DNA of 64,000 nt from Kutzneria viridogrisea. GTDB lineage: Bacteria > Actinomycetota > Actinomycetes > Mycobacteriales > Pseudonocardiaceae. Location of the stretch: assembly GCA_014138725.1 (NCBI GenBank), contig JACJID010000001.1, positions 1 through 64,000 on the forward strand, given 5' to 3'. This document shows, in pieces, positions 22,703 through 42,561 of this stretch. The notes under the pieces are model-generated. The model made no database searches and was not told the origin of the DNA. It saw only the letters and a program-made list of their open reading frames with translations. The position numbers and the translations under genes were made by a program. Position 1 is the first letter of the stretch. Each line of letters starts with the position of its first letter.

Positions 22703-22820
22703 GGGGTTGGTTTGGTGCGGGTCCCTCGCGGCGGCCGTAATCGGGGTAGTCGGGCCGTGGAGGACGCCCCGATTTCGCCAGCCAGCGTAAGGCCGCCGCT
22801 ACCCGCACAAAACCAACCCC
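22703..22820. other. 118-bp structured element, copy 1
   Basis: The outer arms at 22703-22736 and 22791-22820 pair almost throughout (GGGGTTGGTTT with AAACCAACCCC, GTGCGGGT with ACCCGCAC, GCGGCGGCC with GGCCGCCGC). Inside is a hairpin ATCGGGG (22740-22746) with CCCCGAT (22767-22773), followed by a 17-base single strand ending AGCGTAA. A second 118-bp copy at 42444-42561 keeps the inner core but has different outer-arm sequences that still pair. Compensatory change of this kind implies selection on the fold. Confidence 0.8.
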
Positions 22821-22879
22821 GGGTTGGTGAGGGGCGTACGGGGGTTGGTGGTGGGCGGCACGCGGGGGTTGGTGGTGCG

Positions 22880-23250
22880 GCACGTGGGAGTTGCGGTGCG
22901 TGTCGGACGTTGAGGGGTGGTGTGTTGGACGCTGCGGGGTGGTGTGTCGGCGGCTGCGGTGCGGCGTGCTGGAGGTTCTGGGGTGGTGTGTTGGACGTTG
23001 GGGTGCGGTGTGTTCGGCGTTGCGGTGTGGTGTGGTGGACGCTGCGGGGTGGTGTGTCGGCGGCTGCGGTGCGGCGTGCTGGAGGTTCTGGGGTGGTGTG
23101 TTGGAGGTTCTGGGGTGGTGTGTCGGACGTTGGGGTGCGGCGTGTTCGGCGTTGCGGGGTGGTGTAGCGGACGTTGGGGTGCGGCGTGTTCGGCGTTGCG
23201 GTGTGTTGGAGGTTGGGGTGCGGAGTGTCGGCGGCTGCGGGGCGGCGTGT
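22880..23250. repeat. Tandem array B: GT-rich 21-bp units, with a 70-bp perfect duplication
   Basis: Units such as GCTGCGGGGTGGTGTGTCGGC repeat with a period near 21. The plus strand is strongly G+T biased with many GGGG runs. Bases 22926-22995 and 23036-23105 are identical (70 bp, offset 110), showing a recent duplication. Overlapping open frames on both strands result from the period and lack starts with ribosome sites. Confidence 0.85.
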
Positions 23251-23257
23251 CCCGCTG

Positions 23258-23470
23258 ACCGGAGCGCGAGTCCCGTTCTGGGGTGGGTGAGTCCCGGTGT
23301 GAGGAGCGCGAGTCCCGTTCTCGGTGGGTGAGTCCCGGGCTGGGGAGGGCGAGTCCCGTTCTCCAGCAAGCGAGTCCCGGACTGAGGGGCGCGAGTCACG
23401 GTGTCTGGAGCGTGAGTCCCGGTGTAGGAGGGCGAGCTCCGTTCTGGGATGGGTGAGTCCTGGGCCCCGG
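23258..23470. repeat. Tandem array A', second block of GAGTCCCG units
   Basis: About ten further units of the 22424-22660 type (for example GCGAGTCCCGTTCTGGGGTG) flank array B on the other side, so the order is A, 118-bp element, B, A'. The array stops about 110 bp before the DUF222/HNH gene. Confidence 0.8.
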
Positions 23471-23566
23471 TGAGGGGTCTCGTCGACTGGCCAGGGTTGG
23501 GTTTGTGGTGCGGTCACCCACATGGGTAGGCATTGGCATGCAACGGTTTTGAGGTGGATTGGGGAG

Positions 23567-23572
23567 TAGAAT
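23567..23572 (+). promoter_or_regulatory. TAGAAT -10 box, probably leaderless start of DUF222/HNH gene 1
   Basis: TAGAAT ends 7 bases before the ATG at 23580, the spacing expected when transcription begins at or next to the start codon. The second DUF222/HNH gene has the same hexamer 6 bases before its ATG (42596-42601). No convincing -35 box is present. Confidence 0.5.
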
Positions 23573-23579
23573 TGTTGGT

Positions 23580-24719
23580 ATGGCAGCGTTTGTGGACACC
23601 CCTAGCGTCACGGAGTTGTGGCGGTGGGGTGACGCGGAGCTGTTGGGGGCTATGCAGGAGGCGGAGGGTCGGCTTCGGCGGGAGTACGCGGGGTTGCTCG
23701 CGATGATCGCGGAGGCGGACGCGCGGGGTGTGGCGGAGCGGGTGGGGTATCCGAGCCTGAGTGAACTGTTGCGGAGCGTTCTGCTTGTGAGTAAGCGGGA
23801 GGCGAAGCAGAGGATTGTGCATGCGAGTGTTCCGGTGCCGGTTCCACTTGAGCCGGAGCAGTTGTCGGTGATCGACCGGGTGCTGCGGGAGTTGCCGCCA
23901 CACGTGGATCAGACCGAGCGCGGGCACGCCGTGGAGGTCCTGGCGGCAGCGGCCCAGTCGCTGGACGCCTCCAACCTGGTGCCGCTGGGCCGGGAGATCG
24001 TCAACCGGCTGGACCCCGACGGGGCGCTACCGGGTGAGGACGAGCTCGCCCATCCCCGACGCGAGTTCCGGTACGACACACGGCGCGACGGGTCAGTGCG
24101 GTTCCACGGGTACCTGGACGCGGAGACCGGCGCACTGCTGGGGGCAGTCCTCAGCCCGCTGGCGAAACCACACAACGCCCACGACACACGCAGCCTCACG
24201 GAACGGCAAGGGGATGCGTTCGCGGAACTGCTGGAGACTAGCACTACGCCGACGGAGGGCGGGGAACGGCCCCACATCGCGGTGACCGTGCCGTACGAGA
24301 CCCTGCGAACAGGGCTCGGCAGCGCCGAACTCAGCCCATCGGCGATCCGCCGACTGGCCTGTGACGCGAAGGTGATCCCAGTGGTACTGGGTAGCAACTC
24401 CGAACCGCTCGACATCGGGCGGATCAGCTACACCGTGCCGCCCCACCTCCGACGAGCACTGATCGTCAGGGACCAGCACTGCGCATTCCCGGGGTGCAGG
24501 CGGCGGCCGAGCACTTGCCACGCACACCACATCGTCCACTGGGCGAATGGTGGAGCGACCGCACTGTCCAATCTGGTGCTGTTGTGCGGGATGCACCACA
24601 GGCTCGTCCACCACAGTGCCTGGACAATCCACCTGGTCAACGGCAGACCGGAGTTCACTCCGCCGAGCTGGCTCAGGCGAGGGCGGAGTCCCGGTTGGTG
24701 CTCCGACCAGAGCGCATGA
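23580..24719 (+). CDS. DUF222 / 13E12-type HNH endonuclease 1
   Basis: A 379-residue protein with an N-terminal helical DUF222 domain (about 10-270) and a C-terminal HNH domain: RDQHCAFPGCRRRPSTCHAHHIVHWANGG, then NLVLLCGMHHRLVHH, giving the Cys pairs, the His-His core, Asn and the terminal HxxH region. This matches the mycobacterial 13E12 repeat family, whose cellular role is unsettled. ATG at 23580 is used rather than the upstream in-frame codon at 23559 because of the TAGAAT box and conserved start. Codon use is less GC-biased at its beginning than in the neighbours, which suggests mobility. It stands alone, flanked by repeats. Confidence 0.88.
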   Translation: MAAFVDTPSVTELWRWGDAELLGAMQEAEGRLRREYAGLLAMIAEADARGVAERVGYPSLSELLRSVLLVSKREAKQRIVHASVPVPVPLEPEQLSVIDRVLRELPPHVDQTERGHAVEVLAAAAQSLDASNLVPLGREIVNRLDPDGALPGEDELAHPRREFRYDTRRDGSVRFHGYLDAETGALLGAVLSPLAKPHNAHDTRSLTERQGDAFAELLETSTTPTEGGERPHIAVTVPYETLRTGLGSAELSPSAIRRLACDAKVIPVVLGSNSEPLDIGRISYTVPPHLRRALIVRDQHCAFPGCRRRPSTCHAHHIVHWANGGATALSNLVLLCGMHHRLVHHSAWTIHLVNGRPEFTPPSWLRRGRSPGWCSDQSA

Positions 24720-25093
24720 TCGCCACCTGCTGTGCAAGGCAGCGTGGGGCGCTGGTGGCTGCGGCGACCGCCGTTACAGTACGTGCCGCATCAGGAAGTG
24801 GACGCGGCACGTCAACGAACGGGCCTGGGCGCAGACCGCGGTGCGAGCGCTCGGACAGGGGGCCGGATGTCCCAGGTCAGGGGCCGGGTTCTTGATCACT
24901 GCCACGTCCGGCACGGCTCCCAAGCTGTGGTTATCGGTGGAACCCGTAACGCCAGGCGGTTCAAACCGATGCTGATCAATGCGTCAAATGAGGTGGTGAC
25001 GTGGCGAGTACGTGGTTTCCATGGAGTCCGGGAGACCTCCCGACCAGGATTGATCTCATGGAAGCGGCGGTCGTAGCGCGAGAGAGGGAATGC
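24720..25093. other. Intergenic region, 374 bp
   Basis: No gene with a credible start and codon bias was found here. Short frames run through the region but share no family motif. The last 90 bases probably contain the promoter of the FHA-kinase-chaperone operon; an in-frame ATG at 25058 is an alternative start of that operon. Confidence 0.5.
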
Positions 25094-25861
25094 GTGAAGT
25101 CACGTGTCACCTGCTTGTGGATCACTTCTCCGGACGGTAGGAAGTGGACCCACGAGCTGGCCGGGGGGCGCACGAGGATCGGCAGGGCCACCAGGGACGG
25201 GGCACCGGAAGTCGCACTGGAGCCCGACGAGCAACGCCTGGTCAGCAGGGTGCACTGCGTGCTGGACCACCGCGACGGCTGCTGGACGCTGACCGACAAC
25301 GCCTCCGCGAACGGCACCCTGCTGCGCCGCAACGGGGAGGTGACGAGGGTGCTGGGCAGCGCCGAACTGCGGCACGGGGACTCCGTGCTGATCCTGGGCG
25401 ACATCAGCGAGGACGGCAAGCCCGGCTACTGGAAGCTGAAGTTCGACGACCCGTTCCGCACCCAGGTCGCGCCCACGGACATGCCGCAGCCCACCGCCGA
25501 GGCCGCGCCGCACCTGACCTACGACTGGATCCAGTTCAAGGTCTTCCGGGTGACCGGGGCCGAGCGGGTCGAGGTCACGGGCCTGTCCCCGCAGGCGCAC
25601 AAGCTGATCCGGTACATGGCCGAGCTGAGCAGGCTCAACAACGGCTCCGCCGTGGCCTGCCCGCACAACGAGCTGATCCAGATGATGTGGGGCAGACCCG
25701 AGGAGTGGCCGCCGGGACGCGCCTACGACGAGACCAACCTGCGCAACATCGTCAACGCCGCGCGCAAGCGGATCGAGCCGGACCCGGCCAACCCGGTGCT
25801 GCTGCAGACCGAGCGCAACATCGGCTACCGCTTGATCATCAGGGCATCGGGGGCGCCGTGA
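25094..25861 (+). CDS. FHA domain fused to winged-helix DNA-binding domain
   Basis: The GTG at 25094 follows AGAGGGA (25083-25089); ATG at 25058 would add 12 residues. The 255-residue product has an N-terminal FHA domain, which binds phosphothreonine: TRIGRA, then LVSRVHCVLDHRDG (Arg, Ser and His of the pocket) and NASANGTLL. A C-terminal winged helix follows (about 155-250; LSPQAHKLIRYMAEL, RNIVNAARKRIEPDP, TERNIGYRLI), resembling OmpR-type DNA-binding domains. The kinase encoded 52 bp downstream is the obvious source of phosphothreonine. Together they suggest a phospho-dependent transcription switch for this operon. Confidence 0.83.
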   Translation: MKSRVTCLWITSPDGRKWTHELAGGRTRIGRATRDGAPEVALEPDEQRLVSRVHCVLDHRDGCWTLTDNASANGTLLRRNGEVTRVLGSAELRHGDSVLILGDISEDGKPGYWKLKFDDPFRTQVAPTDMPQPTAEAAPHLTYDWIQFKVFRVTGAERVEVTGLSPQAHKLIRYMAELSRLNNGSAVACPHNELIQMMWGRPEEWPPGRAYDETNLRNIVNAARKRIEPDPANPVLLQTERNIGYRLIIRASGAP

Positions 25862-25917
25862 CCGAGCTTGCGAGTCAACCACTGAGCACAGCGTTCGCCA
25901 GCGAGGTGCGGGGATGA
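25858..25917 (+). CDS. Possible 19-residue coupling peptide
   Basis: This minimal frame starts with a GTG inside the FHA gene stop (GTGA) and ends with a TGA inside the kinase ATG (ATGA), so it bridges the 52-bp gap with 4-bp overlaps on both sides. The peptide (starting VTELASQPLST) has no recognisable motif. It may exist only to carry ribosomes from one gene to the next. It could also be chance, since the odds of a 19-codon open frame in this DNA are not small. Confidence 0.35.
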   Translation: MTELASQPLSTAFASEVRG

Positions 25918-27008
25918 GCCTGCTGGAGATCGGCCAGAAGATCAGTCGCAACTACACGGTGGAGCGTTTCCTGGGGCAGGGCGCCTTCGCCGAGGTCTAC
26001 CGGGTCAAGCACCGCTACCTGGGCCGACAGGCGATGAAGGTGTTCAAGCGGATCGGCACCGTCGAGGAGATCGAGGCGATGCTTGGCGAGGCGATCCTGC
26101 TCTCCAAGATCGGCCACCCCAACATCGTGCGCGTGTTCGAGGCCGACACCGTGACCACCTCGGCGGGGCAGTGCGGGTTCTTCACCATGGAGTACGTGGC
26201 CGGCGGCAACCTGCACCGGTTCCTGACCTCGCACTACTCGGGTTTCGTTCCGGTGGAGGTGGCGGTGCGCATCCTCAGCCAGATCTGCGAGGGCCTGGCC
26301 GTGGCGCACTCGGAGGACCCGCCCATCATCCACCGCGACGTGACCCCGCAGAACGTGCTGATCGGTGACGACACCAAGGGGCTGCGCGCCAGGGTCAGCG
26401 ACTTCGGGCTGGCCAAGCGCACCGACCCGCTGACCCTGCTGGCCAGCACCAAGGGCACGCTGGCGTTCAAGGCGCCGGAGTCCCTGCGGGACCTGCGCAG
26501 CGACTCCTGCGCGGGCGACGTGTGGGCCATCGGCACCATCGCCTACCTGGTGCTGACGGGCAAGCTGCCCTACGAGGGGGCCGACGGGCCCGCCTCGTTC
26601 TTCGGGGCGCCGTTCCTGACCAAGCCGCAGCGGCCGCAGGAGATCAACCCCGAGATCGACGACGGGCTGGCCGAGATCGTGCTGCACGCCCTGGAACCAG
26701 ACCCGGCCAAGCGCACCCCGCACGCGGGTGCGATGGCCGACGAGTTCTCCCAGTGGCGGCTCCTGCGTGGGCGGACCAAGCAGTCCGAGCGGGTGCACAC
26801 CTTCTCGCGGGCGCCCGACCCGCAGGTCGTGCCGCTGGACGAGGCGCGCGGCAGGCAACTGGTCGGGCAGGCGCTGGAACTGGGGCGCCAGGGCAGCACC
26901 CTCACCGAGGCGATCGCTCTGCTGGAGCAGGCGTTCCGCGCCTGGCCCGCGCTGCGTGCCGAACACGAGCGGCGGTTGTGGTTGTGGCGCAAGGGCATCG
27001 TGAGCTGA
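25914..27008 (+). CDS. Soluble Hanks-type Ser/Thr protein kinase
   Basis: A 364-residue kinase with a complete catalytic domain: glycine loop G21QGAFAEV, Lys42 (MKVFK), His140-Arg141-Asp142 with Asn147 (HRDVTPQNVL), DFG at 163-165, the APE-like KAPESLR and GDVWAIGTIAYLVLTG. The catalytic loop reads DVTPQN where DLKPEN or DIKPSN is common, which is acceptable. Instead of a membrane helix and PASTA repeats it has a 90-residue helical tail (GQALELGRQGSTLTEAIALLEQAFRAW) resembling a short TPR-like hairpin. It is flanked by an FHA regulator and a J-like protein, both possible substrates. Confidence 0.92.
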   Translation: MSLLEIGQKISRNYTVERFLGQGAFAEVYRVKHRYLGRQAMKVFKRIGTVEEIEAMLGEAILLSKIGHPNIVRVFEADTVTTSAGQCGFFTMEYVAGGNLHRFLTSHYSGFVPVEVAVRILSQICEGLAVAHSEDPPIIHRDVTPQNVLIGDDTKGLRARVSDFGLAKRTDPLTLLASTKGTLAFKAPESLRDLRSDSCAGDVWAIGTIAYLVLTGKLPYEGADGPASFFGAPFLTKPQRPQEINPEIDDGLAEIVLHALEPDPAKRTPHAGAMADEFSQWRLLRGRTKQSERVHTFSRAPDPQVVPLDEARGRQLVGQALELGRQGSTLTEAIALLEQAFRAWPALRAEHERRLWLWRKGIVS

Positions 27009-27031
27009 GCAGAGGAGCACGGGGGATACCG

Positions 27032-28588
27032 ATGAATCCGACGGATTCCGCACTGGACGAAGCCCTGCGGCCACTGGCGGGCGTGAACCTGTACCGCGCC
27101 AACATCTTCCGGATCAGCGGCCTGCCGACCTCGGCCACCGCGGCGCAGGTCAACAGCAGGCGGCGGGAGGCCACCATGCTGGCCAAGCTGGGCACCGCCG
27201 CGCCCCCGCCGCGCGCGGGCGAGCTGCCGCTGCCGAGCCCGCCGGACGAGGAGGCGCTGCGGGCAGCCTTCGAGGCGCTGCGCGATCCGGTGACGAGATT
27301 CGTGCACGAGGTGCTGTGGCTGTGGGGCGGGGAGAAGGCGGCCGCGCACGACGAGGCGATCCGCGCGCACTGCACGGCACTGGAGGAGGAACGGCCGGGG
27401 GAGCCCAGGTCGCCGGCCGAGCTGGAGCGGCTGGACCAGTTGTGGCGGCAGGCGTTGAAGGCATGGGCCTCGGTGCTCTACGCCGCGCGGACCTGGGACC
27501 GGCCCAGACAGCGGGTACGGGAGATCGACGACCCCCGGTTGACCATCGGCACGCTGCGCAGACTGGAGGCCAGGTTGCCGCTGCACGTGGTGACCACCCT
27601 GGTTGAGCTCGCGGCCAGGACGGCGGAACTGGACAGCGAGGACGCGGCGGACCGCTACCTGGAACTGCTCGACGACTCCCCGTTCGGCGAGGACCTGGTC
27701 GAGAAGGCCGTGCTGGCGGTGTCCCGTACCGCCGAGGAGCGGGTGTTCGCGGCCTGCACCGCGGCGGAGAACATGGTCGTCTCCTCCTCGGAAAGCGGGC
27801 TGACCGCCGCCCGCACGCTCATCGACCGGGCCACGCCGCAACTGCGCGTGGTCTCCGCACTGCTGGGGCCGGACAACCCGGCCACCTCGGCGGTGCACGA
27901 CGCGGTGGCCGCCGGGATCAACCAGTGCGCCGTGGCCTACTGGAACGCCAAGGACCAGCCCCCCGGGGTGGTGGCACTGCTCCGCGAGGCGCAGGACCTC
28001 GCCAGGGAGAGCACCACCAGCGCGCAGATCAGCCGCAACCTGAACACGTGCGGCTCGGAGTTCGTGCTGGTGCAGGTGCTCGACCTGTGCAAGGCGAAGG
28101 ACGTGGACGGTGCCGCGGACCGCCTGCGCGCCTGGCGCGAGCGCACCACGGACCCCGAGCTGGACGCGCACCTCGGCACGCTCCTGGACGACCCGTTCGC
28201 GCTGCGCGGCCCGATCCAGTCGGCCCCGTTCACCGGCAACGTCTTCGGCATCGGCGTGACGGCAGTGGGACAGCGGGCCCGTGCCGCCGACGGCAGCTAC
28301 ATCGCCACCTACTGCTTCACGATCATCTTCCTGCTCATCCCGATGGCCGCCTACCACCGCGACGCCCGGTACGTCTACGCCAAGGTGCCGCTGAGCCGGT
28401 TCGCGCGCTGGTGGCGGGTGGCGATGCTGGTGCTGCTGCCGACCCTGTTCGCGCTGGTCTTCCTGAGCGGCACCGCCGCGCTGTGGGTCGGCGCGCTGGC
28501 CGGGATCACCGCCGGGGTCGCGCTGCTGGCCAGGCAGAAGGTGTTGTCCGACTGGGTGGCCGAACGGTCCGCGATGGAAGAGGTGTGA
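27032..28588 (+). CDS. J-like membrane protein of the chaperone operon
   Basis: A 518-residue protein that begins 23 bp after the kinase, downstream of AGAGGAG. Residues about 20-100 (NLYRANIFRISGLPTSATAAQVNSRRR, then EALRAAFEALRDP) resemble the helix pattern of a J domain (Y-x-I-L-G-L-x-x-x-A-T-x-x-x-I), but the HPD tripeptide that stimulates Hsp70 is absent. A long helical middle follows. Near the C-terminus are about three hydrophobic helices (YCFTIIFLLIPMAAY; VAMLVLLPTLFALVFL; ALWVGALAGITAGVALLA). Beside GrpE-like and Hsp70-like genes it is probably the membrane co-chaperone. The family call is weak on sequence alone. Confidence 0.6.
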   Translation: MNPTDSALDEALRPLAGVNLYRANIFRISGLPTSATAAQVNSRRREATMLAKLGTAAPPPRAGELPLPSPPDEEALRAAFEALRDPVTRFVHEVLWLWGGEKAAAHDEAIRAHCTALEEERPGEPRSPAELERLDQLWRQALKAWASVLYAARTWDRPRQRVREIDDPRLTIGTLRRLEARLPLHVVTTLVELAARTAELDSEDAADRYLELLDDSPFGEDLVEKAVLAVSRTAEERVFAACTAAENMVVSSSESGLTAARTLIDRATPQLRVVSALLGPDNPATSAVHDAVAAGINQCAVAYWNAKDQPPGVVALLREAQDLARESTTSAQISRNLNTCGSEFVLVQVLDLCKAKDVDGAADRLRAWRERTTDPELDAHLGTLLDDPFALRGPIQSAPFTGNVFGIGVTAVGQRARAADGSYIATYCFTIIFLLIPMAAYHRDARYVYAKVPLSRFARWWRVAMLVLLPTLFALVFLSGTAALWVGALAGITAGVALLARQKVLSDWVAERSAMEEV

Positions 28589-29070
28589 ACCCCGTGCTGA
28601 CCAGTTTGCTCGAACGGGTGCGCCAGCGGCGCTTCCCACCCGAGTTCCGCATCGCGCAGGTGCTGGCGCCACTGCCGGTACCGCCGCAACCACCACCCGT
28701 GCCACGGCCCGAGCAGTCCGGGGACTTCTCCGACGCCGCACTGGCCGACCTGGCCACCAACCTGTGGCGCACGGTGCGCAAGATCGCGCCGGAGGGCCAG
28801 GAGGACCTGCCCCGCGCGCAGCGGCAGGCCGCACGCCACCTGCGCGCGATGAGCGAGGTGCTGGCCGAGTCCGGGGTCAGCGTGCAGGACCACGACGGAC
28901 TGGCCTACGACCCCGGGCTGACCCTCGACGTGCTCGCGTACGAGGAACGGCCCGGGGTGACCAGGGAGGTCGTCGTGGAGACGATCCGCCCCTCCGTGTA
29001 CCGCTCCGGCCGCACCATCCAGATCGGGCAAGTGATCGTCGCCCAACCCGAACGAGGGGGAGAGCAGTGA
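28585..29070 (+). CDS. GrpE-like nucleotide exchange factor
   Basis: A 161-residue protein starting with a GTG that overlaps the J-like gene. A Pro-rich segment (residues 30-45) precedes a long helix (AALADLATNLWRTVRKI, then AQRQAARHLRAMSEVLAESG). The C-terminal beta segment YEERPGVTREVVVETIRPSVYRSG, then IQIGQVIVAQP resembles the GrpE head domain, which ends in a pattern like V-x-R-P-A-x-V-x-V. Canonical GrpE is slightly longer and has a better-kept head. Its stop overlaps the Hsp70 gene, which supports the assignment. Confidence 0.65.
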   Translation: MNPVLTSLLERVRQRRFPPEFRIAQVLAPLPVPPQPPPVPRPEQSGDFSDAALADLATNLWRTVRKIAPEGQEDLPRAQRQAARHLRAMSEVLAESGVSVQDHDGLAYDPGLTLDVLAYEERPGVTREVVVETIRPSVYRSGRTIQIGQVIVAQPERGGEQ

Positions 29071-31577
29071 GCCGTCAGACCGTCGACTTCGGCATCGACC
29101 TGGGCACCACCACCAGCGCCATCGCGGTGAGCACCGGTGCGGGCGCGGAGGTGGTGCGGGATGCGGCCACGCAGCGGGACTTCACCCCCTCCGCGGTCTA
29201 CGTCAGCAAGAACTCCAAGGTGTTCGTCGGGGACAAGGGCCGCGAGCGGGCCGAGTCCGACCCGGACAACGCCTGCGTGGAGTTCAAGCTGCAGATGGGC
29301 ATGCGCGGCACGCACAAGCACTTCGCCGCCGCTGGCCGGGACATGAGCCCGGAGGAGCTGTCCGCGGAGGTGCTCAAGTCCCTGCGCGGCAACGTGCAGC
29401 AGGCCACCGGTGAGGCCATCTCCGCCTCGGTGATCACCGTGCCCGCGGCCTTCGAGCTGGACCAGTGCGACGCCACCCGCCGGGCCGCCGCGCTGGCCGG
29501 GCTGGAGTTCGCCCCGCTGTTGCAGGAGCCCACGGCCGCGGCCTGGGCCTACAGCGTGCACCACAAGCCCGAGCGCGGGTTCTGGCTGGTCTACGACTTC
29601 GGCGGCGGCACCTTCGACGCCGCGGTGGTCAGCTTCCGGGACGGGGAGTTCGTCGTGGTCAACCACGAGGGCGACAACTTCCTGGGCGGCAAGCTGATCG
29701 ACTGGGCACTGGTGGAGCAGGTGCTGATCCCCGCCGCCCGCGAGGAGTACGGGCTGACCGGGCTCAGCAGGGGCGACGCGCGCTGGCGGGGCACCGTGGC
29801 CAAGCTCAAGCAGGCCGCGGAGAACGCCAAGATCCACCTGTCCACGGCGCAGACCGTGGAGGTGGACGTGCAGCTGGACCCGCCGGGCGGGGAGCGGGTC
29901 GACTTCACCTGGGAGCTCACCAGGGCCGACGTGGAGCGGGCGTCCATGCCGCTGTACCGCAGTTCCATCGAGCTGTGCCGCCGGGCGCTCACGGAGAAGG
30001 GCCTGGCACCCGGGGACATCGAGCGGGTGCTGCTGGTCGGCGGCACCACCATCGCCCCCGGCCTGCGCGCGCTGGTCGCCGACCCGACCGAGGGCCTGGG
30101 CATCCCGGTGGACCACAGCCTGGACCCGGTCACCGTGGTCGCCAAGGGGGCCGCGATCTTCGCAAGCACCCAGCGCGTACCGCACGGCACGCACGTGGCC
30201 GCGCCCGGCGAGGTCGTGCTGGAGATGGAGCACGAGCCGGTCGGCCAGGACCTGGAACCCCTTGCGGGCGGCCGGTTGCGCGCCGAGGCCGCGCGGGACT
30301 GGTCGGGCTGGACGATCGAGTTCGTCAACGAGCAGGCGCAGCCCGTGTGGCGCAGCGGCCAGGTCGCGGTCAGCGGCGAGGGCACCTTCGCCACCCGGCT
30401 CGCCGCGGTGCACGCCGCCACCAGCACCTACCAGGTGCTGCTGCGCGACCAGCACGGCACGCAGGTGCCCACGGTGCCCGCGACCGTGGAGTACCGGCAC
30501 AGCGTCGGCCCGCTGGGAACGTCCACAGTGCTCAGTCACTCGGTGGGTGTCTGGCTGGAGGGCAACGAGGTGCAGTGGTTGCTGCGCAAGGGAACCGAGC
30601 TGCCCGCCAGCAAGCAGATCGTGCTGCACTCCACTGTGGACGTACGGCGCAACACCCGCAGCGGCCTGATCCGCGTGCCGATCGTGGAGGGCGAGCGGTC
30701 CAGGGCCGACCGCAACACGCTGATCGGGCGGCTGGACATCCGCGCCGACGAGGTCAAGCGGGACGTGCCCGCGGGCAGCGAGGTGGAGGTGCACCTGCGC
30801 ATCGACCGCAGCTTCACCCCGCGCGCCGACGCCTACGTGCCGCTGCTGGACGCGGAGTTCGACATCCAGGTGGAACTGGGCCGCTCGGCGGCGCCGGACG
30901 TGGCCGAACTGCGCGAGGAGGCGCGGGAACTGGTGCAGCGGCACGGTGACCTGCGCGCCAGGGCCACCCAGTTCGGTGCGACCGACGCGGGCGCGCTGCT
31001 GGACCGGTTCGACCGCGCGGGCGTGCTCAAGGAGGTGCAGGGCATGGTCGCCGCGCTGGAGGTGGACCTGGACGCCGTGCAGACCTGCCAGGTGCGCCTG
31101 CGCGACGCCCAGAACCAGCTCGACGAGGTGGAGGAGGCGCTGGTCCTGCCCGAGATGATCAGCCACGCCCGTGCGCTGGTGCAGCAGGTGCGGGAGATGG
31201 CCAAGGACTGGGGCGAGCCGGGGGACCAGCGGGACCTGACCGCGGCGGCATCCTCGGTGGAGGACGCCATCGCGGCGGGGGACCGCAGTGTGCTGCAACG
31301 CCAGATGGAGGTGGTGCGCGGCATCGGCCTGCGCATCCTGCGCGACACCGGGCGGCTGGACGCGGTGATCTTCGGGCAGCGCGAGGCCCAGCTCAGCGGC
31401 AGCAGCGACCCGCAGGTGCAGCGGGTGCTGGCCGAGGGGCGGCTGGCGCTGGACTCCGGGGACGGGGCCCGGCTGCGCCAGGTCAACCGGCAGCTGGACG
31501 CGTTGCTGCCCGAGGACGAGACCACCGCTGACGTGTTCGGCATGAAGAGCACCGTGACCATGGGAGATCGGCGTTGA
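29067..31577 (+). CDS. Divergent Hsp70 (DnaK-like) chaperone with long C-terminal region
   Basis: An 836-residue protein whose N-terminal 375 residues are an actin-fold Hsp70 ATPase: FGIDLGTTTSAIAV (phosphate 1), VITVPAAFELDQCDATRRAA, LLQEPTAAAWAY, LVYDFGGGTFDAAVVS (phosphate 2), and VLLVGGTTIAPGLRALV (adenosine motif). The rest differs from DnaK. A beta-rich portion (about 430-610) could be a modified substrate domain, and about 230 residues of helix follow. Housekeeping DnaK is about 620 residues and ends differently. The GTG start overlaps the GrpE-like stop. With its own J-like and GrpE-like partners this is a dedicated second Hsp70 system. Confidence 0.88.
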   Translation: MSRQTVDFGIDLGTTTSAIAVSTGAGAEVVRDAATQRDFTPSAVYVSKNSKVFVGDKGRERAESDPDNACVEFKLQMGMRGTHKHFAAAGRDMSPEELSAEVLKSLRGNVQQATGEAISASVITVPAAFELDQCDATRRAAALAGLEFAPLLQEPTAAAWAYSVHHKPERGFWLVYDFGGGTFDAAVVSFRDGEFVVVNHEGDNFLGGKLIDWALVEQVLIPAAREEYGLTGLSRGDARWRGTVAKLKQAAENAKIHLSTAQTVEVDVQLDPPGGERVDFTWELTRADVERASMPLYRSSIELCRRALTEKGLAPGDIERVLLVGGTTIAPGLRALVADPTEGLGIPVDHSLDPVTVVAKGAAIFASTQRVPHGTHVAAPGEVVLEMEHEPVGQDLEPLAGGRLRAEAARDWSGWTIEFVNEQAQPVWRSGQVAVSGEGTFATRLAAVHAATSTYQVLLRDQHGTQVPTVPATVEYRHSVGPLGTSTVLSHSVGVWLEGNEVQWLLRKGTELPASKQIVLHSTVDVRRNTRSGLIRVPIVEGERSRADRNTLIGRLDIRADEVKRDVPAGSEVEVHLRIDRSFTPRADAYVPLLDAEFDIQVELGRSAAPDVAELREEARELVQRHGDLRARATQFGATDAGALLDRFDRAGVLKEVQGMVAALEVDLDAVQTCQVRLRDAQNQLDEVEEALVLPEMISHARALVQQVREMAKDWGEPGDQRDLTAAASSVEDAIAAGDRSVLQRQMEVVRGIGLRILRDTGRLDAVIFGQREAQLSGSSDPQVQRVLAEGRLALDSGDGARLRQVNRQLDALLPEDETTADVFGMKSTVTMGDRR

Positions 31578-36078: not shown

Positions 36079-36129
36079 CCGCCACTGGGATACTCCCGTG
36101 ATCGGGGCGGGACTACTGGAGGTCGGTCG

Positions 36130-37872
36130 GTGTTCACCGGGGATGTCGGGCTGGAGTTGGGCGGCAGGGTCGCGGCGGCACTGCGCACCGCGCTGGACGT
36201 GGAGATCACCGCGGAGCAGGCGCTGATCCGCCCCTCGGCCGCCGGGCGAGGCGCCGACTACCAGTGCAACGCCGCGATGAGCCTGGCCAAGCGGGTGGGC
36301 CGCGCGCCGCGCGAGGTGGCCGAACTGATCGTGACCCACCTGGACGCCGCCGATCTCGTGGAACCGCCGGAGGTGGCCGGTCCGGGCTTCGTCAACTTCA
36401 CGCTGCGCCGGGAGTGGTTGCAGCAGTGGGCGACCGGGCTGTTGGCCGACCCCCGGCTGGGCGTGCGCAGCGCGCCGCAGCCGCGTCGCTACGCCATCGA
36501 CTACGGCAGCCCGAACGTGGCCAAGGAGATGCACGTCGGCCACCTGCGGTCCTCGATCATCGGTGACGCCATCGTGCGCATGCTGGAGTTCGCCGGGCAC
36601 GAGGTGATCCGGCACAACCACCTTGGCGACTGGGGCACCCCGTTCGGCATGCTCATCGAGCACCTGGTCGACGAGGGCTGGGCCGCCGGCGGCGAGCACT
36701 CGATCAGCGACCTGAACAGCTTCTACCAGGCGGCGCGCAAGAAGTTCGACGCCGACCAGGACTTCGCCGAGCGGGCCAGGCGCCGGGTCGTCGCGCTGCA
36801 GAGCGGGGACGAGGCCACGCTGGGGCTGTGGCGCGAGCTGGTCGGCGAGTCCGAGCGCCACTTCGCGCAGGTCTACCAGTTGCTCGGTGTGAAGCTGACC
36901 GCCGAGGACTACTACGGGGAGAGCTTCTACAACCCGTTCCTGGCCGACACCATCGCGGAGCTGGAGGCCAAGGGGCTCACCGAGCTCAGCGACGGGGCGG
37001 TGTGCGTGTTCCCGCCCGGCTTCAGCAACCGCGAGGGCGACCGGCTGCCGCTGATCGCGCGCAAGAGCGACGGGGGCTACGGCTACGCCAGCACCGACCT
37101 GGCCACCGTGCGGTACTGGACCCGCGACCGGCAGGCCACCGACCTGCTCTACGTGGTGGGATCCCCGCAGGCGCAGCACTTCCAGATGGTGTTCAAGGCC
37201 AGCGAGCAGGCCGGGTGGCTGGACCAGGCGCACCGGGCCGTGCACATCGGCTTCGGCTCGGTGCTCGGCTCGGACGGGCAGATGCTGCGCACCCGCGCGG
37301 GCAGCACGATCAAGCTGGTGGACCTGCTGCGGGAGGCCGTGGACCGGGCCGCCGCCGTGGTCGCCGAGCGCACCGAGCTGGACGAGCGGCAGCGGGCCGA
37401 GGTCGCGCGGGCGGTCGGCATCGGCGCGGTGAAGTACGCCGACCTGTCCAACGACCGGGTCAAGGACTACGTGTTCGCCTGGGACCGGATGCTGGCCATG
37501 GAGGGCAACACCTCCGTGTACCTCCAGTACGCCAACACCCGGGTGCTGTCGATCATCGGCAGGGCGGGCAGGTCCGCGCCCGAGGGCACCGAGGTGGTGC
37601 TGCACGCCGCCGCCGAGCGCGCGCTGGTGGTCAAGCTCCTGCAACTGCCCGCCGCGCTGGCCGCCGCCACCGAGGAGTTCGCCCCGCACAAGTTGTGCAC
37701 CTACCTGTACGAAACGGCTGCGGCGTTCTCGGCCTTCTACGAGAATTGCCCCATCCTGAAAGCGCCCGACGACCGCACCCAGCTGTCCCGGCTCGCGCTG
37801 GCCCAGCTGACCTCGCGCGTGCTCACGCTCGGCTTGGCGTTGTTGGGCATCGACACCCCGGAGCAGCTGTGA
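36130..37872 (+). CDS. argS: Arginyl-tRNA synthetase
   Basis: A 580-residue class I synthetase that charges tRNA-Arg. The N-terminal Add1 domain is followed by the HIGH-type motif in YGSPNVAKEMHVGHLRSSIIGDAI and the ArgRS-specific HLGDWGTPFGMLI. The KMSKS position is replaced by GSDGQMLRTRAGSTIKLVDLL, as in most ArgRSs, which lack the canonical lysine motif. A C-terminal DALR anticodon domain (VYLQYANTRVLSIIGR, then LCTYLYETAAAFSAFYENCPIL) is complete. GTG at 36130 follows a GGAGG-like site. Whether it is the only copy cannot be told from this window. Confidence 0.95.
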   Translation: MFTGDVGLELGGRVAAALRTALDVEITAEQALIRPSAAGRGADYQCNAAMSLAKRVGRAPREVAELIVTHLDAADLVEPPEVAGPGFVNFTLRREWLQQWATGLLADPRLGVRSAPQPRRYAIDYGSPNVAKEMHVGHLRSSIIGDAIVRMLEFAGHEVIRHNHLGDWGTPFGMLIEHLVDEGWAAGGEHSISDLNSFYQAARKKFDADQDFAERARRRVVALQSGDEATLGLWRELVGESERHFAQVYQLLGVKLTAEDYYGESFYNPFLADTIAELEAKGLTELSDGAVCVFPPGFSNREGDRLPLIARKSDGGYGYASTDLATVRYWTRDRQATDLLYVVGSPQAQHFQMVFKASEQAGWLDQAHRAVHIGFGSVLGSDGQMLRTRAGSTIKLVDLLREAVDRAAAVVAERTELDERQRAEVARAVGIGAVKYADLSNDRVKDYVFAWDRMLAMEGNTSVYLQYANTRVLSIIGRAGRSAPEGTEVVLHAAAERALVVKLLQLPAALAAATEEFAPHKLCTYLYETAAAFSAFYENCPILKAPDDRTQLSRLALAQLTSRVLTLGLALLGIDTPEQL

Positions 37873-39209
37873 AACAGATCCTCGCCGTGCTCGGCCTGCT
37901 CCTCGCGCTGGCCGTGCCCGCGCAGGCAGCCGAAGGACCCGCCCACGTCACCGGATCGCTCAACGGCGGCTCGACCTACGTGATGGACGTGCCCGCGCGC
38001 TGGAACGGCACGGTGTTGCTGTGGAGCCACGGGCTGAACTTCACCCCGGAGACGCCGACTCCGCCCAACCCCGCGCAGAACGCGCCGACCGGCGCCACGC
38101 AGGCCCTGCTGGACCAGGGCTACGCGCTGATCGGCTCCTCGTACGTGACCGCGGGCTGGGTCGTGGCCACCGCGGTGCCCGACCAGGTCGCCACGCTGGC
38201 CGCGTTCCAGCAGCGGTTCGGCAGGCCCAAGCGGACCATCGCCTGGGGCGGCTCGATGGGCGGGCTGATCACCACCAAGCTGAACGAGGACTACGGCTCC
38301 CTGCTGGACGGCTCGGTGTCGCTGTGCGGTGCGGTGATGGGCGGACCGGGCATCTTCAACTCCATGCTGGACGTCAGCTTCGCGCTGCGCACGCTGATCG
38401 CGCCCGAGCTCAAGCTGGTGGACTACACCGACCGCGCCGACGGGCTGGCCGCGATGCGGCAGCTGGCCAAAGCCGTCACCGCGGCCCAGGCCACGCCCGA
38501 GGGCAGGGCCCGCATCGCGCTGGCCGCCGCACTGTACGACGTGCCGGGCTACAACGACCCCAGCCAGACCAGGCCCGCGCCCGGTGACGCGGCGGCGGCC
38601 GAGGTCAACCAGTTCCAGTTCGTGTCCACGGTGATCGCCGCGATCGACACCGCCGCCCGCCAGGACACCGAGGGCAACCTGGGCGGCAACCCCTCGTGGA
38701 ACACCGGCGTGGACTACCGCAGGCTGCTGGGCCAGTCGCGGGTCGCCGAGGAGGTCGGCCAGCTCTACTCCGCTGCCGGGCTGTCCCTACACGGTGACCT
38801 GGACGCGCTGGCGGCTGCCCCGCGGATCTCCGCCAACCCCGCGGCCAAGGAGCTACTGGCCCGCTCCTCCGCGCTGACCGGACGGCTGACCAAGCCGCAG
38901 ATCACCCTGCACACCACCGGCGACGGGCTGGTCCCGATCGAGGGGGAGCAGGCGTACCGCCAGTACTCGGGTGACAGCCCGCTGCTGCGTCAGACCAATG
39001 TGGACGGTCCAGGGCACTGCGCCTTCGCGCTGCCCGAGGTGCTCGCCGGGCTCAAGGCGCTCGAACAGCGACTGGACTCCGGCCGCTGGGGCGACACCGG
39101 GGCCGCCGCCATGAACGCCCGCGCCCGCGCCGCCGACCCCACCGCGACCCCGCGGTTCACCGAGTTCAAGCCCGGCCCGTACCAGCGGCCGTACCAGTTG
39201 CGGCGCTGA
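37869..39209 (+). CDS. Secreted alpha/beta hydrolase
   Basis: A 446-residue protein starting with a GTG overlapping the argS stop. A signal peptide (VKQILAVLGLLLALAVPAQAAE) indicates export. The hydrolase fold shows TVLLWSHGLNF (oxyanion region), the nucleophile elbow WGGSMGGLIT (Ser in G-G-S-M-G-G), the acid in HTTGDGLVPIEGE and His in DGPGHCAFA. Size and nucleophile context fit secreted peptidase or esterase relatives. The substrate is unknown. Its coupling to argS is probably only transcriptional. Confidence 0.82.
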   Translation: MKQILAVLGLLLALAVPAQAAEGPAHVTGSLNGGSTYVMDVPARWNGTVLLWSHGLNFTPETPTPPNPAQNAPTGATQALLDQGYALIGSSYVTAGWVVATAVPDQVATLAAFQQRFGRPKRTIAWGGSMGGLITTKLNEDYGSLLDGSVSLCGAVMGGPGIFNSMLDVSFALRTLIAPELKLVDYTDRADGLAAMRQLAKAVTAAQATPEGRARIALAAALYDVPGYNDPSQTRPAPGDAAAAEVNQFQFVSTVIAAIDTAARQDTEGNLGGNPSWNTGVDYRRLLGQSRVAEEVGQLYSAAGLSLHGDLDALAAAPRISANPAAKELLARSSALTGRLTKPQITLHTTGDGLVPIEGEQAYRQYSGDSPLLRQTNVDGPGHCAFALPEVLAGLKALEQRLDSGRWGDTGAAAMNARARAADPTATPRFTEFKPGPYQRPYQLRR

Positions 39210-39213
39210 CACA

Positions 39214-39246
39214 CGTGTGGCGCGCACCCCGGGTGCGCGCCACACG
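39214..39246. terminator. Perfect 16-bp inverted repeat between convergent genes
   Basis: The arms at 39214-39229 and 39231-39246 (CGTGTGGCGCGCACCC and its complement) pair perfectly around a single base. It lies just after the hydrolase stop and seven bases before the end of the sugar porter gene, so it can terminate transcription from both sides. Confidence 0.85.
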
Positions 39247-39252
39247 AGTTCG

Positions 39253-40650
39253 TCAGTGCCCGTAGACCAGTTCCTGGCCGATGTCCTCCAGGCTGCGGCC
39301 CTTCGTCTCCGGCATCAGCTTCTTGACGAACAGGAACGCCAAGCCCGTCATCACCGCGAAGAACAGGAAGTTCAGGCCCGCGCCGAACTTGTCCAGCAGC
39401 GCGGGGAACACCAGTGCCACCAACAGGTTGAACAGCCAGTTGAAGGTCACGCAGAGCCCGACCGCCCCGGCCCGTACGCTCAGCGGGAACAGTTCCGGCA
39501 GGGCCACCCACTGCACCGGTCCCCAGGACACCGAGAACGAGGCGATGTAGACCGCGATGCCGAGCAGGGTGAGCCCCAGCAGCAGCGGCCCGGTGGACAG
39601 CCCGGCCAGGTTCACCGCGGCGAGCAGGACCATCGCCCCGCACATGCCCAGCGCACCGTAGAGCAGCAGCGGGCGCCGCCCCACCTGGTCGATGAGCCGC
39701 ATCGCGGGCAGGGTCATCACCATGTTGATCGCGCCGATGCCCACGTTGGCCAGGATCGCCCCGTTGGCACTGAAACCCACGTTGGTGAGCAGGGTCGGCG
39801 CGTAGTAGATGATCGTGTTGATGCCCACGAAGTTCTGGAAGAACACCAGCAGCATGCCCACGACGAACAGCGGGCGCAGCCGCCCCTTGACCAGCATGCG
39901 CAGTTGCAGCGGCTCGGCCTGTTCGGCCTCCTTGCGCGCGCTGGCCTGGATCTCGGCGAGCTCGGAGTTGGCGGCCTGCTCGTCACCGCGCAACGAGGTC
40001 AGCACCTTCTTGGCCTCGTCCGCGCTGCCCTTGTTGACCGCCAGCCAGCGCGGGCTCTCCGGCTGGGTGTAGATACCGATCATGAGCAGCACCGCGGGCA
40101 GCACGCCCAGGCCGATCATCCAGCGCCACGCCCCCGCGTCGGCCAGCGCGTAGTCGGTGGCGTAGGCGACCAGGATGCCCACGGTCACCAGGAGCTGCAT
40201 GAGTGAGGTGAGCTTGCCCCTGGCCTCCTTGGGTGCGAGCTCCGACAGGTACATCGGCACGACCACCGAGGCGATGCCGACACCCACACCCATGATGAAG
40301 CGGAACGCGACCAGGAACTCCGCGTTGCCCGCCAGCGCGGCGCCCAGTGTGCCGACCGTGAAGACCACGCCCGAGGAGAGGATCATCTTTCTGCGGCCGA
40401 GGGAGTCGGCGAGCTTGCCCGCCAGACCCGCGCCCAGCATCGAGCCCGCCAGCAGTCCCGACACGACTGTGCCCTGCACGATCGGGCTCAGCGGGATGTC
40501 GTCCTTGATGTAGAGCAGGGCACCGGAGATCACTCCTGTGTCGTAGCCCCAGAGGATGCCGCCCAGCGCGCCGAAGAACCAGATCCCGATGTTCCTCCTG
40601 CTGTGCCGCGCCCTGGCGACCACAGTGGAGGAGTCCGTTCCGGGAGACAT
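39253..40650 (-). CDS. Sugar porter-family MFS transporter
   Basis: A 465-residue twelve-helix permease. Family motifs are present: GGILWGYDTGVISGAL in helix 1, GKLADSLGRRKMIL between helices 2 and 3, YLSELAPKEARGKL after helix 4, PESPRWLAV after helix 6, QNFVGINTIIYYAPTLL in helix 7, and PMYLSE/PELFPL-type loop segments with the final PETKGRSLEDI. The Q-x-x-G-x-N-x-x-x-Y-Y segment lines the hexose site in characterised porters. It probably imports a monosaccharide by proton symport. It is transcribed alone, with a perfect palindrome just upstream of its start. Confidence 0.93.
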   Translation of the reverse strand: MSPGTDSSTVVARARHSRRNIGIWFFGALGGILWGYDTGVISGALLYIKDDIPLSPIVQGTVVSGLLAGSMLGAGLAGKLADSLGRRKMILSSGVVFTVGTLGAALAGNAEFLVAFRFIMGVGVGIASVVVPMYLSELAPKEARGKLTSLMQLLVTVGILVAYATDYALADAGAWRWMIGLGVLPAVLLMIGIYTQPESPRWLAVNKGSADEAKKVLTSLRGDEQAANSELAEIQASARKEAEQAEPLQLRMLVKGRLRPLFVVGMLLVFFQNFVGINTIIYYAPTLLTNVGFSANGAILANVGIGAINMVMTLPAMRLIDQVGRRPLLLYGALGMCGAMVLLAAVNLAGLSTGPLLLGLTLLGIAVYIASFSVSWGPVQWVALPELFPLSVRAGAVGLCVTFNWLFNLLVALVFPALLDKFGAGLNFLFFAVMTGLAFLFVKKLMPETKGRSLEDIGQELVYGH

Positions 40651-40668
40651 CTTTGTCCCTTCTCTCGG

Positions 40669-40682
40669 AGGGTGATCACCCT
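40669..40682. promoter_or_regulatory. 14-bp perfect palindrome upstream of the sugar porter
   Basis: AGGGTGATCACCCT is perfectly symmetric and starts 19 bases before the porter start codon on the minus strand. The position suits an operator that blocks transcription when sugar is absent. The 260-bp divergent space otherwise shows no clear feature. Confidence 0.45.
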
Positions 40683-40910
40683 AGGGCTGACCGTGGTGCC
40701 CAGCTACTCGGAAGCACTCGCTGCCGCCGATGCGTGGTGCTCTGGGGCAGTCTCGGGTCACGGGACTTGACAAGCTTTCCGTGCAACCGAAGCAGGCTCA
40801 CACGGCATGACAGGGGCTCAGCGAGGCCGCCGGTTGCACGGGATCGCTGCCGTGTACAGAACTTCACAGTCACGGGCTGGCAGGGTGTTTGCGCTGGCAG
40901 CATCGGTGCG

Positions 40911-42137
40911 GTGACCAGTACAGCCCTGCCCCGACGGCAGCACAAGACGGTCTCGGAGCTGCTGCGCGGGGACTTCGGCCGGGTGCTCGTCCACGTCCTG
41001 TGCTGGCAGCTGGCGATGACCCTGCTCGGGGTGCTGATGGAGCAGATGCTCGGCGTCGGCGGCAAGTACACCGGGGACGTGGCGCCCGCCGGGGCGAACC
41101 TGCTCACGCACACCTACCGCTGGGACGCCGCCTGGTTCCGGGACATCGTCCTGCACTGGTACCAGTTCCGCGCGCAGGAACCCGTGTTCTACCCGGTGTT
41201 CCCGTTGGCCGTGCTGCTGGTCAACTGGTTGAGCCTGGGCACGGCCGGTCTGCTCGTCTCCGGCCTGGTCGTCAACACGGTGTCCAGCTGGCTGGCCGTG
41301 ACCGCGCTGGTCAAGATCGTGCGGTACCACGTGGACGGTCCGCACGAGCGCAGGCTCGCGCTGCTGGCCTTCCTCGCCGCGCCCGCCGCCTTCTTCCTGC
41401 ACATGTTCTACAGCGAGGCCGTGTTCGTCGCCTTCGCTTTCTGGGCCTACCTGTTCGCGCTGCGCAGGCAGTGGCGGGCCATGGCCCTGTGCATGATCCC
41501 GATGATGGCCACGCGGGTCACCGCCGTGCTGTTCCTGGGCCTGTGCTTCCTGGAGTTCTGGCGTGCCGGTCAGTGGAGACCCCGCGCGCTGCTGAGCTGG
41601 AACCTGCTGTGGTTCCCCGTCGGCCTGGCCGGGCTCGGGCTGTACGCCTTGTTCCTGCACGCCGTGACCGGCGACGCGCTCGGCATGTTCACCGCGTACC
41701 ACAAGGGTCCTGACTGGGCGTACCACGTGTTCAACCTGAACTTCCCCGGCACGATCCTCGACCAGGTCCGGCAGCTGTGGCGCGAGCTGACCGGTGTGGA
41801 CCAGGTCTACGTGCGGACCTTCACCGACCGGCTGCTGCCGCTGCCCTACCTGGCCGTGACCGCGGCCAGCTCGGTCTACCTGCTGGTGGTGCGGCGGTCG
41901 GCCGCGGTGCCGTTGGCGGCCTTCGGGTTCGCGTCGATCGTCATGTTCACGCTGAACAGCAACCTGATCTCGGTGTACCGCTACCTGTTGCCCTGCATCA
42001 CGATCTACATCGCGCTCGCCGAACTGGTCGGGCGGCGGCCGTCCTGGCGGTACCCGGTGTACGGGCTGCTGGTGTGCGGCGGGGCGTTCCAGGTGGCGCT
42101 GGTCGCGACGTTCGTGTGCTATCGGTGGGCGGGGTGA
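40911..42137 (+). CDS. PIG-V-like GT-C mannosyltransferase
   Basis: GTG at 40911 (VTSTALPRRQHKTV) is preferred over a frame extending to 40653, which would precede the first helix with implausible sequence. The 408-residue protein has eight to ten membrane helices. The first outer loop TYRWDAAWFRDIVLHWY, followed by PVFYPVFPLAVLLVN, matches the PIG-V pattern (W-D-x-x-W-Y…F-F-P-L-x-P), in which the Asp is the catalytic residue of GT-C enzymes using polyprenyl-phosphate mannose. A C-terminal SVYRYLLPCITIYIAL segment is also typical. It probably mannosylates a lipid or secreted protein. Confidence 0.78.
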   Translation: MTSTALPRRQHKTVSELLRGDFGRVLVHVLCWQLAMTLLGVLMEQMLGVGGKYTGDVAPAGANLLTHTYRWDAAWFRDIVLHWYQFRAQEPVFYPVFPLAVLLVNWLSLGTAGLLVSGLVVNTVSSWLAVTALVKIVRYHVDGPHERRLALLAFLAAPAAFFLHMFYSEAVFVAFAFWAYLFALRRQWRAMALCMIPMMATRVTAVLFLGLCFLEFWRAGQWRPRALLSWNLLWFPVGLAGLGLYALFLHAVTGDALGMFTAYHKGPDWAYHVFNLNFPGTILDQVRQLWRELTGVDQVYVRTFTDRLLPLPYLAVTAASSVYLLVVRRSAAVPLAAFGFASIVMFTLNSNLISVYRYLLPCITIYIALAELVGRRPSWRYPVYGLLVCGGAFQVALVATFVCYRWAG

Positions 42138-42233
42138 GGGGTGGATTTGTGGGGTGCTGGCGGCTCGCCTCGGAACCTTGACCGTGTCTCGCCGGCGACC
42201 ACCCAGCCACGCCCGCCGACACAGGCCGTGTCG

Positions 42234-42278
42234 TGAAAGTGCCGTTCAGGACACTGGATGTCCTGAACGGCACTTTCA
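42234..42278. repeat. Perfect 20-bp hairpin repeat (family copy 2)
   Basis: Arms at 42234-42253 (TGAAAGTGCCGTTCAGGACA) and 42259-42278 are perfectly complementary with a 5-base loop. The stem shares TGAAAGTGCCGTTC with the hairpin at 8476-8526. It lies 97 bp after the mannosyltransferase stop and may serve as its terminator. Confidence 0.85.
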
Positions 42279-42443
42279 TGGCACCGCGGCCTCGGGCCGG
42301 ACCAGATACCAGGTCAATGATGCGCGACGCGCCACTAGCGGGGCTTTCCGAGGTCGACCCGTACAGGGAGCTCTCGGCCCTGCTGCTGTACGTACCCGGC
42401 GCAGTCGACGGGGGCCGCGCAGGCTGAGTCGCAATGTGGTTTC

Positions 42444-42561
42444 GGGGTGGTTTGTCCTGGGGCCCTGGCGATGGGCTGTGATCGGGGTAGTTGGGGCGTG
42501 GAATTCCGCCCCGATCTCGCCGACGAGCGTAAGCCCATCGCCACCCAGGAAAAACCACCCC
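42444..42561. other. 118-bp structured element, copy 2
   Basis: The outer arms 42444-42476 and 42533-42561 pair (GGGGTGGTTT with AAACCACCCC, TCCTGGG with CCCAGGA, GGCGATGGGC with GCCCATCGCC). The inner hairpin ATCGGGG (42481-42487) pairs with CCCCGAT (42509-42515), followed by a 17-base strand ending GAGCGTAA. Compared with copy 1 the core is about three-quarters identical, while the outer helices differ in sequence yet remain paired. It ends 34 bp before the -10 box of the following HNH gene, so it is probably not within that transcript. Between 42138 and 42607 nothing else gene-like is seen. Confidence 0.8.

Follow-up and report, generated by a model that had tools for sequence, protein, structure and literature searches.

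In HEARO, an RNA gene lies directly upstream of an HNH-nuclease gene within a mobile unit, and the source cited for the REP13E12 category of repeats is reportedly Gordon et al. 1999. PMC10589994 names REP13E12/HNH endonuclease/DUF222 as a category of repetitive element. The abstracts of PMC3733652 and PMC2817692 give repetitive extragenic palindromic (REP) elements a length of 20-40 bp and >100 copies per genome, respectively, and HEARO/OMEGA (IscB) elements (PMC9755519) are sharp-ended units in which a structured element stands just upstream of an HNH-nuclease gene. Here we describe a family of large hairpins linked to DUF222/HNH genes in the actinomycete Kutzneria viridogrisea, represented by two elements, E1 (22703..22820) and E2 (42444..42561), on the forward strand of the 64,000-nucleotide stretch that we analysed, hereafter the window (GCA_014138725.1, contig JACJID010000001.1, positions 1 to 64,000). 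Our proposal, to which we give a probability of roughly 45%, is that each element is a foldback end belonging to a DUF222/HNH unit that is multicopy and probably mobile, and that the nuclease may cut this end. No published account of the element was found in the open literature, a search that did not cover most subscription journals; the preliminary description of this DNA, made from the sequence alone, likewise knew of none.

The hairpin family recalls REP/RAYT systems, HEARO and insertion sequences, but in each case a defining feature is missing here or unconfirmed. Repeated DUF222/HNH genes are already known, and the family described here is a dispersed structured repeat tied to such a nuclease gene. 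The likeness to REP13E12 lies in a multicopy DUF222 and HNH gene (33 PF02720 matches in this genome). However, a flanking hairpin goes unmentioned in the passages of PMC10589994 consulted, and no hairpin with at least 15 of 16 arm positions paired was found at 44 DUF222 loci outside Kutzneria (Cryobacterium and others), mycobacterial REP13E12 copies not having been examined one by one. REP/REPIN-RAYT systems share with our family dispersed, extragenic, imperfect palindromes (seen here in other genera) and a linked nuclease gene, but the hairpins here are 115-150 bp long and number tens per genome, and the linked nuclease in Kutzneria is of the HNH type. HEARO/OMEGA matches in its upstream structured element and, for E2, in a unit that ends with the open reading frame (ORF); it differs in that we saw no RuvC domain, no Rfam match at gathering level and no sign of RNA-level selection.

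The hairpins are dispersed across the K. viridogrisea genome (10.25 Mb in 11 contigs) and are tightly tied to DUF222. A covariance model, R1, built from nine own-genome copies and run with E up to 1 (150 of 5250 candidates being scored), matches 22 copies at E 8.6e-25 to 2.7e-15, and also matches those 22 places on the opposite strand with lower scores. For all 22 copies a DUF222 match lies downstream on the same strand, 149-1258 bp away, against a background in which at most 0.3% of strand positions in this genome have one no more than 2 kb downstream. The preliminary description had linked two elements to DUF222/HNH genes and proposed a covariance-model search; that search yielded 22 own-genome copies, not two, and the link to DUF222 holds in Kutzneria but not at most of the loci examined beyond it. 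The 22 hairpins use 21 of the 33 PF02720 matches, some of which look like fragments of a single gene (for example C1:325792 and C1:326085). Three subtypes were recognized: type 1 hairpins accompany p1-like genes, type 2 hairpins accompany p2-like ones, and a third subtype occurs at L081, L082 and L085. The p1 and p2 proteins are 30% identical, while the elements linked to them share one plan. At one locus (L003), tandem hairpins in the same orientation (1465-1580 and 2099-2215) stand upstream of a single DUF222 gene, and the second joins type 1 arms to a type 2-like core and tail, which suggests exchange between copies.

Hairpin and gene form a single dispersed unit with sharp edges. The E2 unit (42444..43690, forward strand) is common to two further loci, L065 and L066. 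Between hairpin edge and stop codon the DNA of the three is 83-86% identical, and outside they have no similarity; on the left the similarity begins within ~20 bp of the hairpin edge, and on the right it stops at the stop codon or no more than ~15 bp from it. A recognition site and a mobile unit remain the best of the three guesses in the preliminary description, although what is repeated in Kutzneria is the hairpin together with the gene rather than the hairpin alone. The hairpin and the DUF222 gene fill the E2 unit, which contains no known transposase; larger units elsewhere were scanned for DUF222 only. Four other Kutzneria genomes (Kutzneria sp. CA-103260, K. buriramensis, and two taken as K. 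chonburiensis and K. kofuensis) carry units of ~1.6-2.0 kb with inward-pointing hairpins at both ends of the DUF222 gene. The best 80 of 210 DUF222 matches comprise 36 Kutzneria loci and the 44 other loci mentioned above. A hairpin lies within 360 bp upstream at 31 of the 36, within 520 bp downstream at 22 and at both ends at 20, and all 53 hairpins at these loci point toward the gene. An upstream hairpin is lacking at L306, L310 and L315, and the DUF222 match is interrupted or partial at L325 and L328. Additionally, all 24 hairpin matches in Kutzneria sp. CA-103260 point at a DUF222 match, or a piece of one, at most 1.5 kb away.

Measured over 1.3-2.1 kb, unit copies within a genome are 90-93% identical in K. 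chonburiensis (5 loci), 89-94% in K. buriramensis (5), 71-96% in K. kofuensis (6) and 76-91% in CA-103260 (9), and the flanks of similar copies are unrelated to one another. These units resemble insertion sequences in their size and inverted hairpin ends, but they carry a DUF222/HNH gene, a search for target duplications gave none, and in K. viridogrisea only the upstream end was seen. In Kutzneria sp. 744, hairpins adjoin DUF222 pieces at two loci (L263, L264), as decayed units should look. Another DUF222 group in that genome (six loci compared) has no such hairpin, and its units still end at the stop codon, which itself differs between copies. Several details of individual units were also recorded. 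In the Kutzneria sp. 744 units L156-L161, this differing stop codon is TGA, TAA or TAG, as though it came from the junction or from beyond it. One CA-103260 gene (L287, 2157-3071 and 4348-4884) is split by a gap of ~1.3 kb between its two hairpins, as if an insertion had entered the unit. K. chonburiensis units at L165-L168 end in TTCGGT/ACCGAA; one of their flanks is G-rich and includes TTAA-like bases, and the opposite flank is C-rich, hinting at a possible target preference.

E1 and E2 lie where the preliminary description had placed them, and their equal length of 118 bp stands, provided that the outermost G22703-C22820 pair of E1 is counted. The covariance model matches E1, a type 1 hairpin, over 22704-22819 (E 5.5e-24) and E2, a type 2 hairpin, at E 2.3e-23. 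Both contain ATCGGGG, CCCCGAT and AGCGTAA, their fold z-scores against shuffled sequence are -3.6 (E1) and -7.8 (E2), and ATCGGGGTAGTNGGG, allowing up to 2 mismatches, matches twice in the window, only in E1 and E2 (0.22 expected). The outer stem of E2, P1, pairs 42444..42461 with 42544..42561 around one internal G.A mismatch, and the inner stem, P2, pairs 42467..42476 with 42533..42542, its 3' arm preceded by the conserved AGCGTAA (42526..42532). The core of E2 consists of strand A (ATCGGGG, 42481..42487), strand B (GGGGCG, 42493..42498) and strand C (CGCCCCGAT, 42507..42515), with A complementary to C and B complementary to an overlapping part of C. Across the family, A is complementary to C over at least 6 bases in 84 of the 120 hairpins with a B-C stem (the other 57 of 177 having been set aside), compared with 7.2% in a control with the upstream strand shuffled. 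As this complementarity occurs in hairpins that already have a B-C stem, strand C is able to pair with either A or B.

The arms pair while their sequences change, in agreement with the compensatory changes claimed in the preliminary description. The stronger case for covariation is an alignment of 15 hairpins from other Kutzneria genomes, in which 97.7% of cells are paired and 8 pairs show two-sided change, compared with 4.1 in shuffles and 0-1 with slid partners; a count of further pair types was not above shuffles (reached in 150 of 500). The slid control is the safer of the two because shuffles do not preserve relatedness. Among the nine own-genome copies, of which 8 are distinct, the share of paired cells is 95.1%, compared with 39-51% when partners are slid, and 23 cells changed on both sides, against 9.2 in shuffles. 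Two of five covariation measures in this set were not above shuffles (reached by 137 and 492 of 500), and the stem changes amount to few events, as the copies fall into two close groups. The paired-cell figures of both alignments are favourably biased, because both structures were chosen on these same sequences. A joint alignment of the two groups misaligned stem P2, and no model was made from it.

The kind of mismatch found in the stems suggests which molecule is under selection. Among isolated stem mismatches in the 177 hairpins, which are mutually related copies, 16 are of the G-T type and 38 of the A-C type (16 and 26 in distinct contexts), compared with 151 and 143 over all aligned positions. 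G.A accounts for 75 of the 164 isolated mismatches, and 70 of those 75 follow TT. An RNA would tolerate G-U above A-C, and no such preference is seen; thus, selection on the fold probably acts at the DNA level, and an antisense RNA may also be compatible with the mismatch data. Additionally, a TANNNT box lies 5-8 bases before the start codon at all 34 Kutzneria loci scanned (the 36 loci with L325 and L328 left out), and in 1.3% of random windows. In the window, a -10-like box, TAGAAT, falls between element and ATG at both genes, at 23567..23572 for the E1 gene (7 bases ahead of its ATG) and at 42596..42601 for the E2 gene (6 bases ahead, as part of a putative leaderless promoter). The hairpin is therefore probably outside the transcript of the gene, and we reject a 5' untranslated region riboswitch, which the preliminary description had also thought unlikely. 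Together, the lack of a G-U preference and the promoter-like box make a role at the DNA level likelier than one at the RNA level.

The downstream genes encode a DUF222 domain and a C-terminal HNH motif, the latter identified by Pfam in p1 and by alignment residues in p2. The p1-type gene occupies 23580..24719 (PF02720 4.6e-32, PF01844 5.8e-6; the ATG was picked by us and the scan ran from 23559), and the p2-type gene occupies 42608..43690, both on the forward strand; the start codons lie 759 and 46 bp past E1 and E2, respectively. The p2 protein shows HNH-like residues, CxxxxC..DH..CxxHH, in alignment and is without a Pfam HNH match in the scan of window proteins. In PHROGs, p1 and p2 give short HNH matches only, and the protein of another locus, L140, gives none; a phage origin was rejected. 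A defence system was likewise rejected, with no PADLOC match for three proteins.

By analogy with HEARO/OMEGA, the element could instead specify a structured small RNA for use by the HNH protein. The layout is alike, with a structured element, an HNH gene and a unit ending at the stop codon; the best matches of the DUF222 profile in the PDB are HNH domains of IscB (E 5.2e-5); p1 weakly matches the NCBIfam guided_IscB model (23.8 bits against a cut-off of 175), which p2 and the L140 protein do not; and the two alternative core pairings look switch-like. Even so, we judge this explanation unlikely. Family scans of the window proteins give DUF222 for both genes, HNH for p1 and no RuvC domain. Rfam 15 gives no gathering-level match to the elements in the window, ten other loci searched up to E 5 are likewise free of matches, and eight matches in four more loci all fall below gathering, only mir-B6 (E 0.8) overlapping E2. 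Moreover, G-T mismatches are not favoured over A-C, inverted copies of the hairpin stand at the far end of units, and stand-alone copies occur. The separate small RNA put forward in the preliminary description is thus not favoured.

Hairpins of this kind are also found beyond Kutzneria. A second model, R2, built from the 15 sister-genome Kutzneria hairpins and applied to the family with 12 candidates per genome scored and stricter filters, so that counts are lower bounds, matches at least 32 of 297 Pseudonocardiaceae genomes in at least 10 of 46 genera at E 1e-3. Class-wide, R2 matches 6 of 394 genomes at E 1e-5, namely our own and five weak matches, all in one genus. A core pattern search of 150 family genomes gave, outside our own genome and among the matches listed, only chance-like matches with 2-3 mismatches. 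Hairpins in other genera are often longer (up to 149 bp, the overall range being ~113-149 bp), repeated and, in the loci examined, mostly stand-alone. A DUF222 match is nearby in 2 of the 19 best loci outside Kutzneria (L219 and L220, genus g34) and in 2 of 36 further loci, L226-L261 (L236 and L237, genus g30), the profile for the latter survey having been built without L144, L081 and L082. Hence, copies are not random with respect to HNH genes in Kutzneria, as the preliminary description expected, but they are so outside it, with DUF222 nearby at 4 of 55 loci. Consistent with this, hairpin presence is unlinked to DUF222 presence across genomes at E 1e-6 (24 of 32 hairpin genomes against 176 of 265 others). 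Within single genomes of this wider set, entire arm sets differ between copies and yet pair (L241 and L249; L230, L231 and L232). Stand-alone hairpins at L239, L240, L227-L229 and L249-L250 have conserved flanks of ~10-60 bp on each side, indicating that the repeated element exceeds the hairpin.

Free-standing copies without an adjacent DUF222 gene allow another explanation, in which the hairpin is an independent REP-like or terminator-like Pseudonocardiaceae repeat, placed at gene ends as a terminator or insulator, and the Kutzneria DUF222 units merely carry it, for example as a shield from flanking transcription. Among 34 such loci outside Kutzneria for which both neighbours were called, 32 have at least one neighbour that they follow: the neighbours are convergent at 10 loci, run in the same direction at 22 and are divergent at 2. 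This count comes from crude ORF predictions, which are inconsistent for some orthologous loci. The position at both ends of Kutzneria units fits insulation, and hairpins are stably inherited between two species of genus g17. There, six locus pairs compared between genomes G055 and G108 all bear hairpins in both species, and two further G055 loci match a G108 contig end only partly. Some stems in these pairs show single uncompensated changes, and one pair (L281/L285) shows two compensated changes, which could alternatively come from exchange between copies. We regard an independent repeat as possible but somewhat doubtful, because a simple terminator has no need of a fold as long as 115-150 bp in which a core strand is repeated and a G.A mismatch and AGC[GT]TA recur, and because every K. 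viridogrisea element precedes a DUF222 match on the same strand.

The wider spread of hairpins than of their link to DUF222 would also suit a homing-type nuclease that lands on pre-existing hairpin repeats, its gene being copied between repeats by recombination, and in genus g30 the gene stands at one hairpin, downstream and inward, at 2 of 4 loci. A homing gene, however, should split its site, and here whole hairpins flank the gene; nor was a pool of empty target hairpins seen, since hairpins accompany DUF222 throughout K. viridogrisea (22 of 22) and CA-103260 (24 of 24). Homing therefore seems to us a distinctly improbable origin.

Returning to the foldback end of a mobile unit, movement is supported by the many similar copies with unrelated flanks, together with absence from sister species at two K. 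chonburiensis loci. Both-side comparison was possible only with Kutzneria sp. 744 (both loci) and K. kofuensis (the second locus). At the first locus, 3.1 kb that holds another gene and the unit is represented by 24 bp in Kutzneria sp. 744. At the second, Kutzneria sp. 744 carries other genes (~1.4 kb) where the unit would be, and 5.5 kb of K. chonburiensis corresponds to 112 bp in K. kofuensis. For the E2 unit, the two flanks were never found together in 60 relatives, among the matches listed. For a g17 hairpin site, the corresponding intergenic space of three sister genomes carries other sequence. At one orthologous site (L274), several very large palindromes of other kinds are present in a sister genome, which suggests that different palindrome families turn over in that intergenic space.

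Several observations weigh against this proposal. Both K. chonburiensis loci differ in other genes as well as in the unit, and neither a clean empty site nor a target duplication was found for the E2 unit or at the g17 and K. chonburiensis loci. The occupation of the same loci in the two g17 species implies no recent movement there. In K. viridogrisea, 12 of the 33 DUF222 matches have no assigned hairpin (some being pieces of one gene), hairpins are seen upstream only, and on its right the E2-type unit simply finishes with the stop codon. At L087-L089 the DUF222 gene is retained and the outer stem is gone; at L088 a core remnant, GCGTGGAATACCGCCCCGAT, persists at ~2388-2407 (minus strand) upstream of the gene. 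Additionally, no DUF222 match at E 1e-6 was obtained for 8 of the 32 genomes with hairpins, so that something else may spread or keep hairpins in them. Finally, binding and cutting of the hairpins by the DUF222 protein, like movement of the unit, are things that we infer.

If the foldback-end proposal is right, the hairpin would act as DNA, extruded as a cruciform or formed on the lagging-strand template, and the recurrent G.A mismatch and the A/B/C core would mark strand identity. The DUF222 protein would bind the folded end, its HNH domain would nick, and repair or copying would spread the unit, while the single hairpins of other genera would represent solo ends, or shrunken derivatives from which the gene has disappeared. 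As the E2 hairpin ends just upstream of the likely promoter, DUF222 binding could also limit expression of the nuclease. A bolder idea, which we hold to be rather doubtful, is that DUF222/HNH proteins are a new type of transposition enzyme, in which an HNH nuclease reads a folded DNA end of 115-150 bases by shape, the A/B/C core serves as a strand-exchange switch in cutting, and solitary hairpins are non-autonomous offspring. Recognition of shape rather than sequence would explain why arm letters differ between species and copies while pairing stays.

DUF222 genes are numerous, with up to 58 matches in one Kutzneria genome and a match in 200 of 297 family genomes, and no account of their role was found in the open literature. 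A structured end that travels with the gene provides a concrete candidate substrate, for which binding and cutting are directly testable. If the protein does act on the hairpin, an HNH enzyme would join the nucleases that act on folded DNA ends, and the presence of a family of large palindromes throughout Pseudonocardiaceae genomes could have its explanation.

Other repeats lie close to the two window elements. Between a PIG-V gene and E2, positions 42225-42287 hold a second, unrelated near-perfect palindrome with ~20-bp arms (GTGAAAGTGCCGTTCAGGACA...), which matches itself on the opposite strand and gives sub-threshold matches to Rfam miRNA families (best E 0.0057). Degenerate G-rich repeats around GAGTCCCGG and GGTGTGTTGGA flank E1 (22400-22700 and 22830-23480), and G-rich stretches resembling these flanks also surround the two tandem elements of L003.

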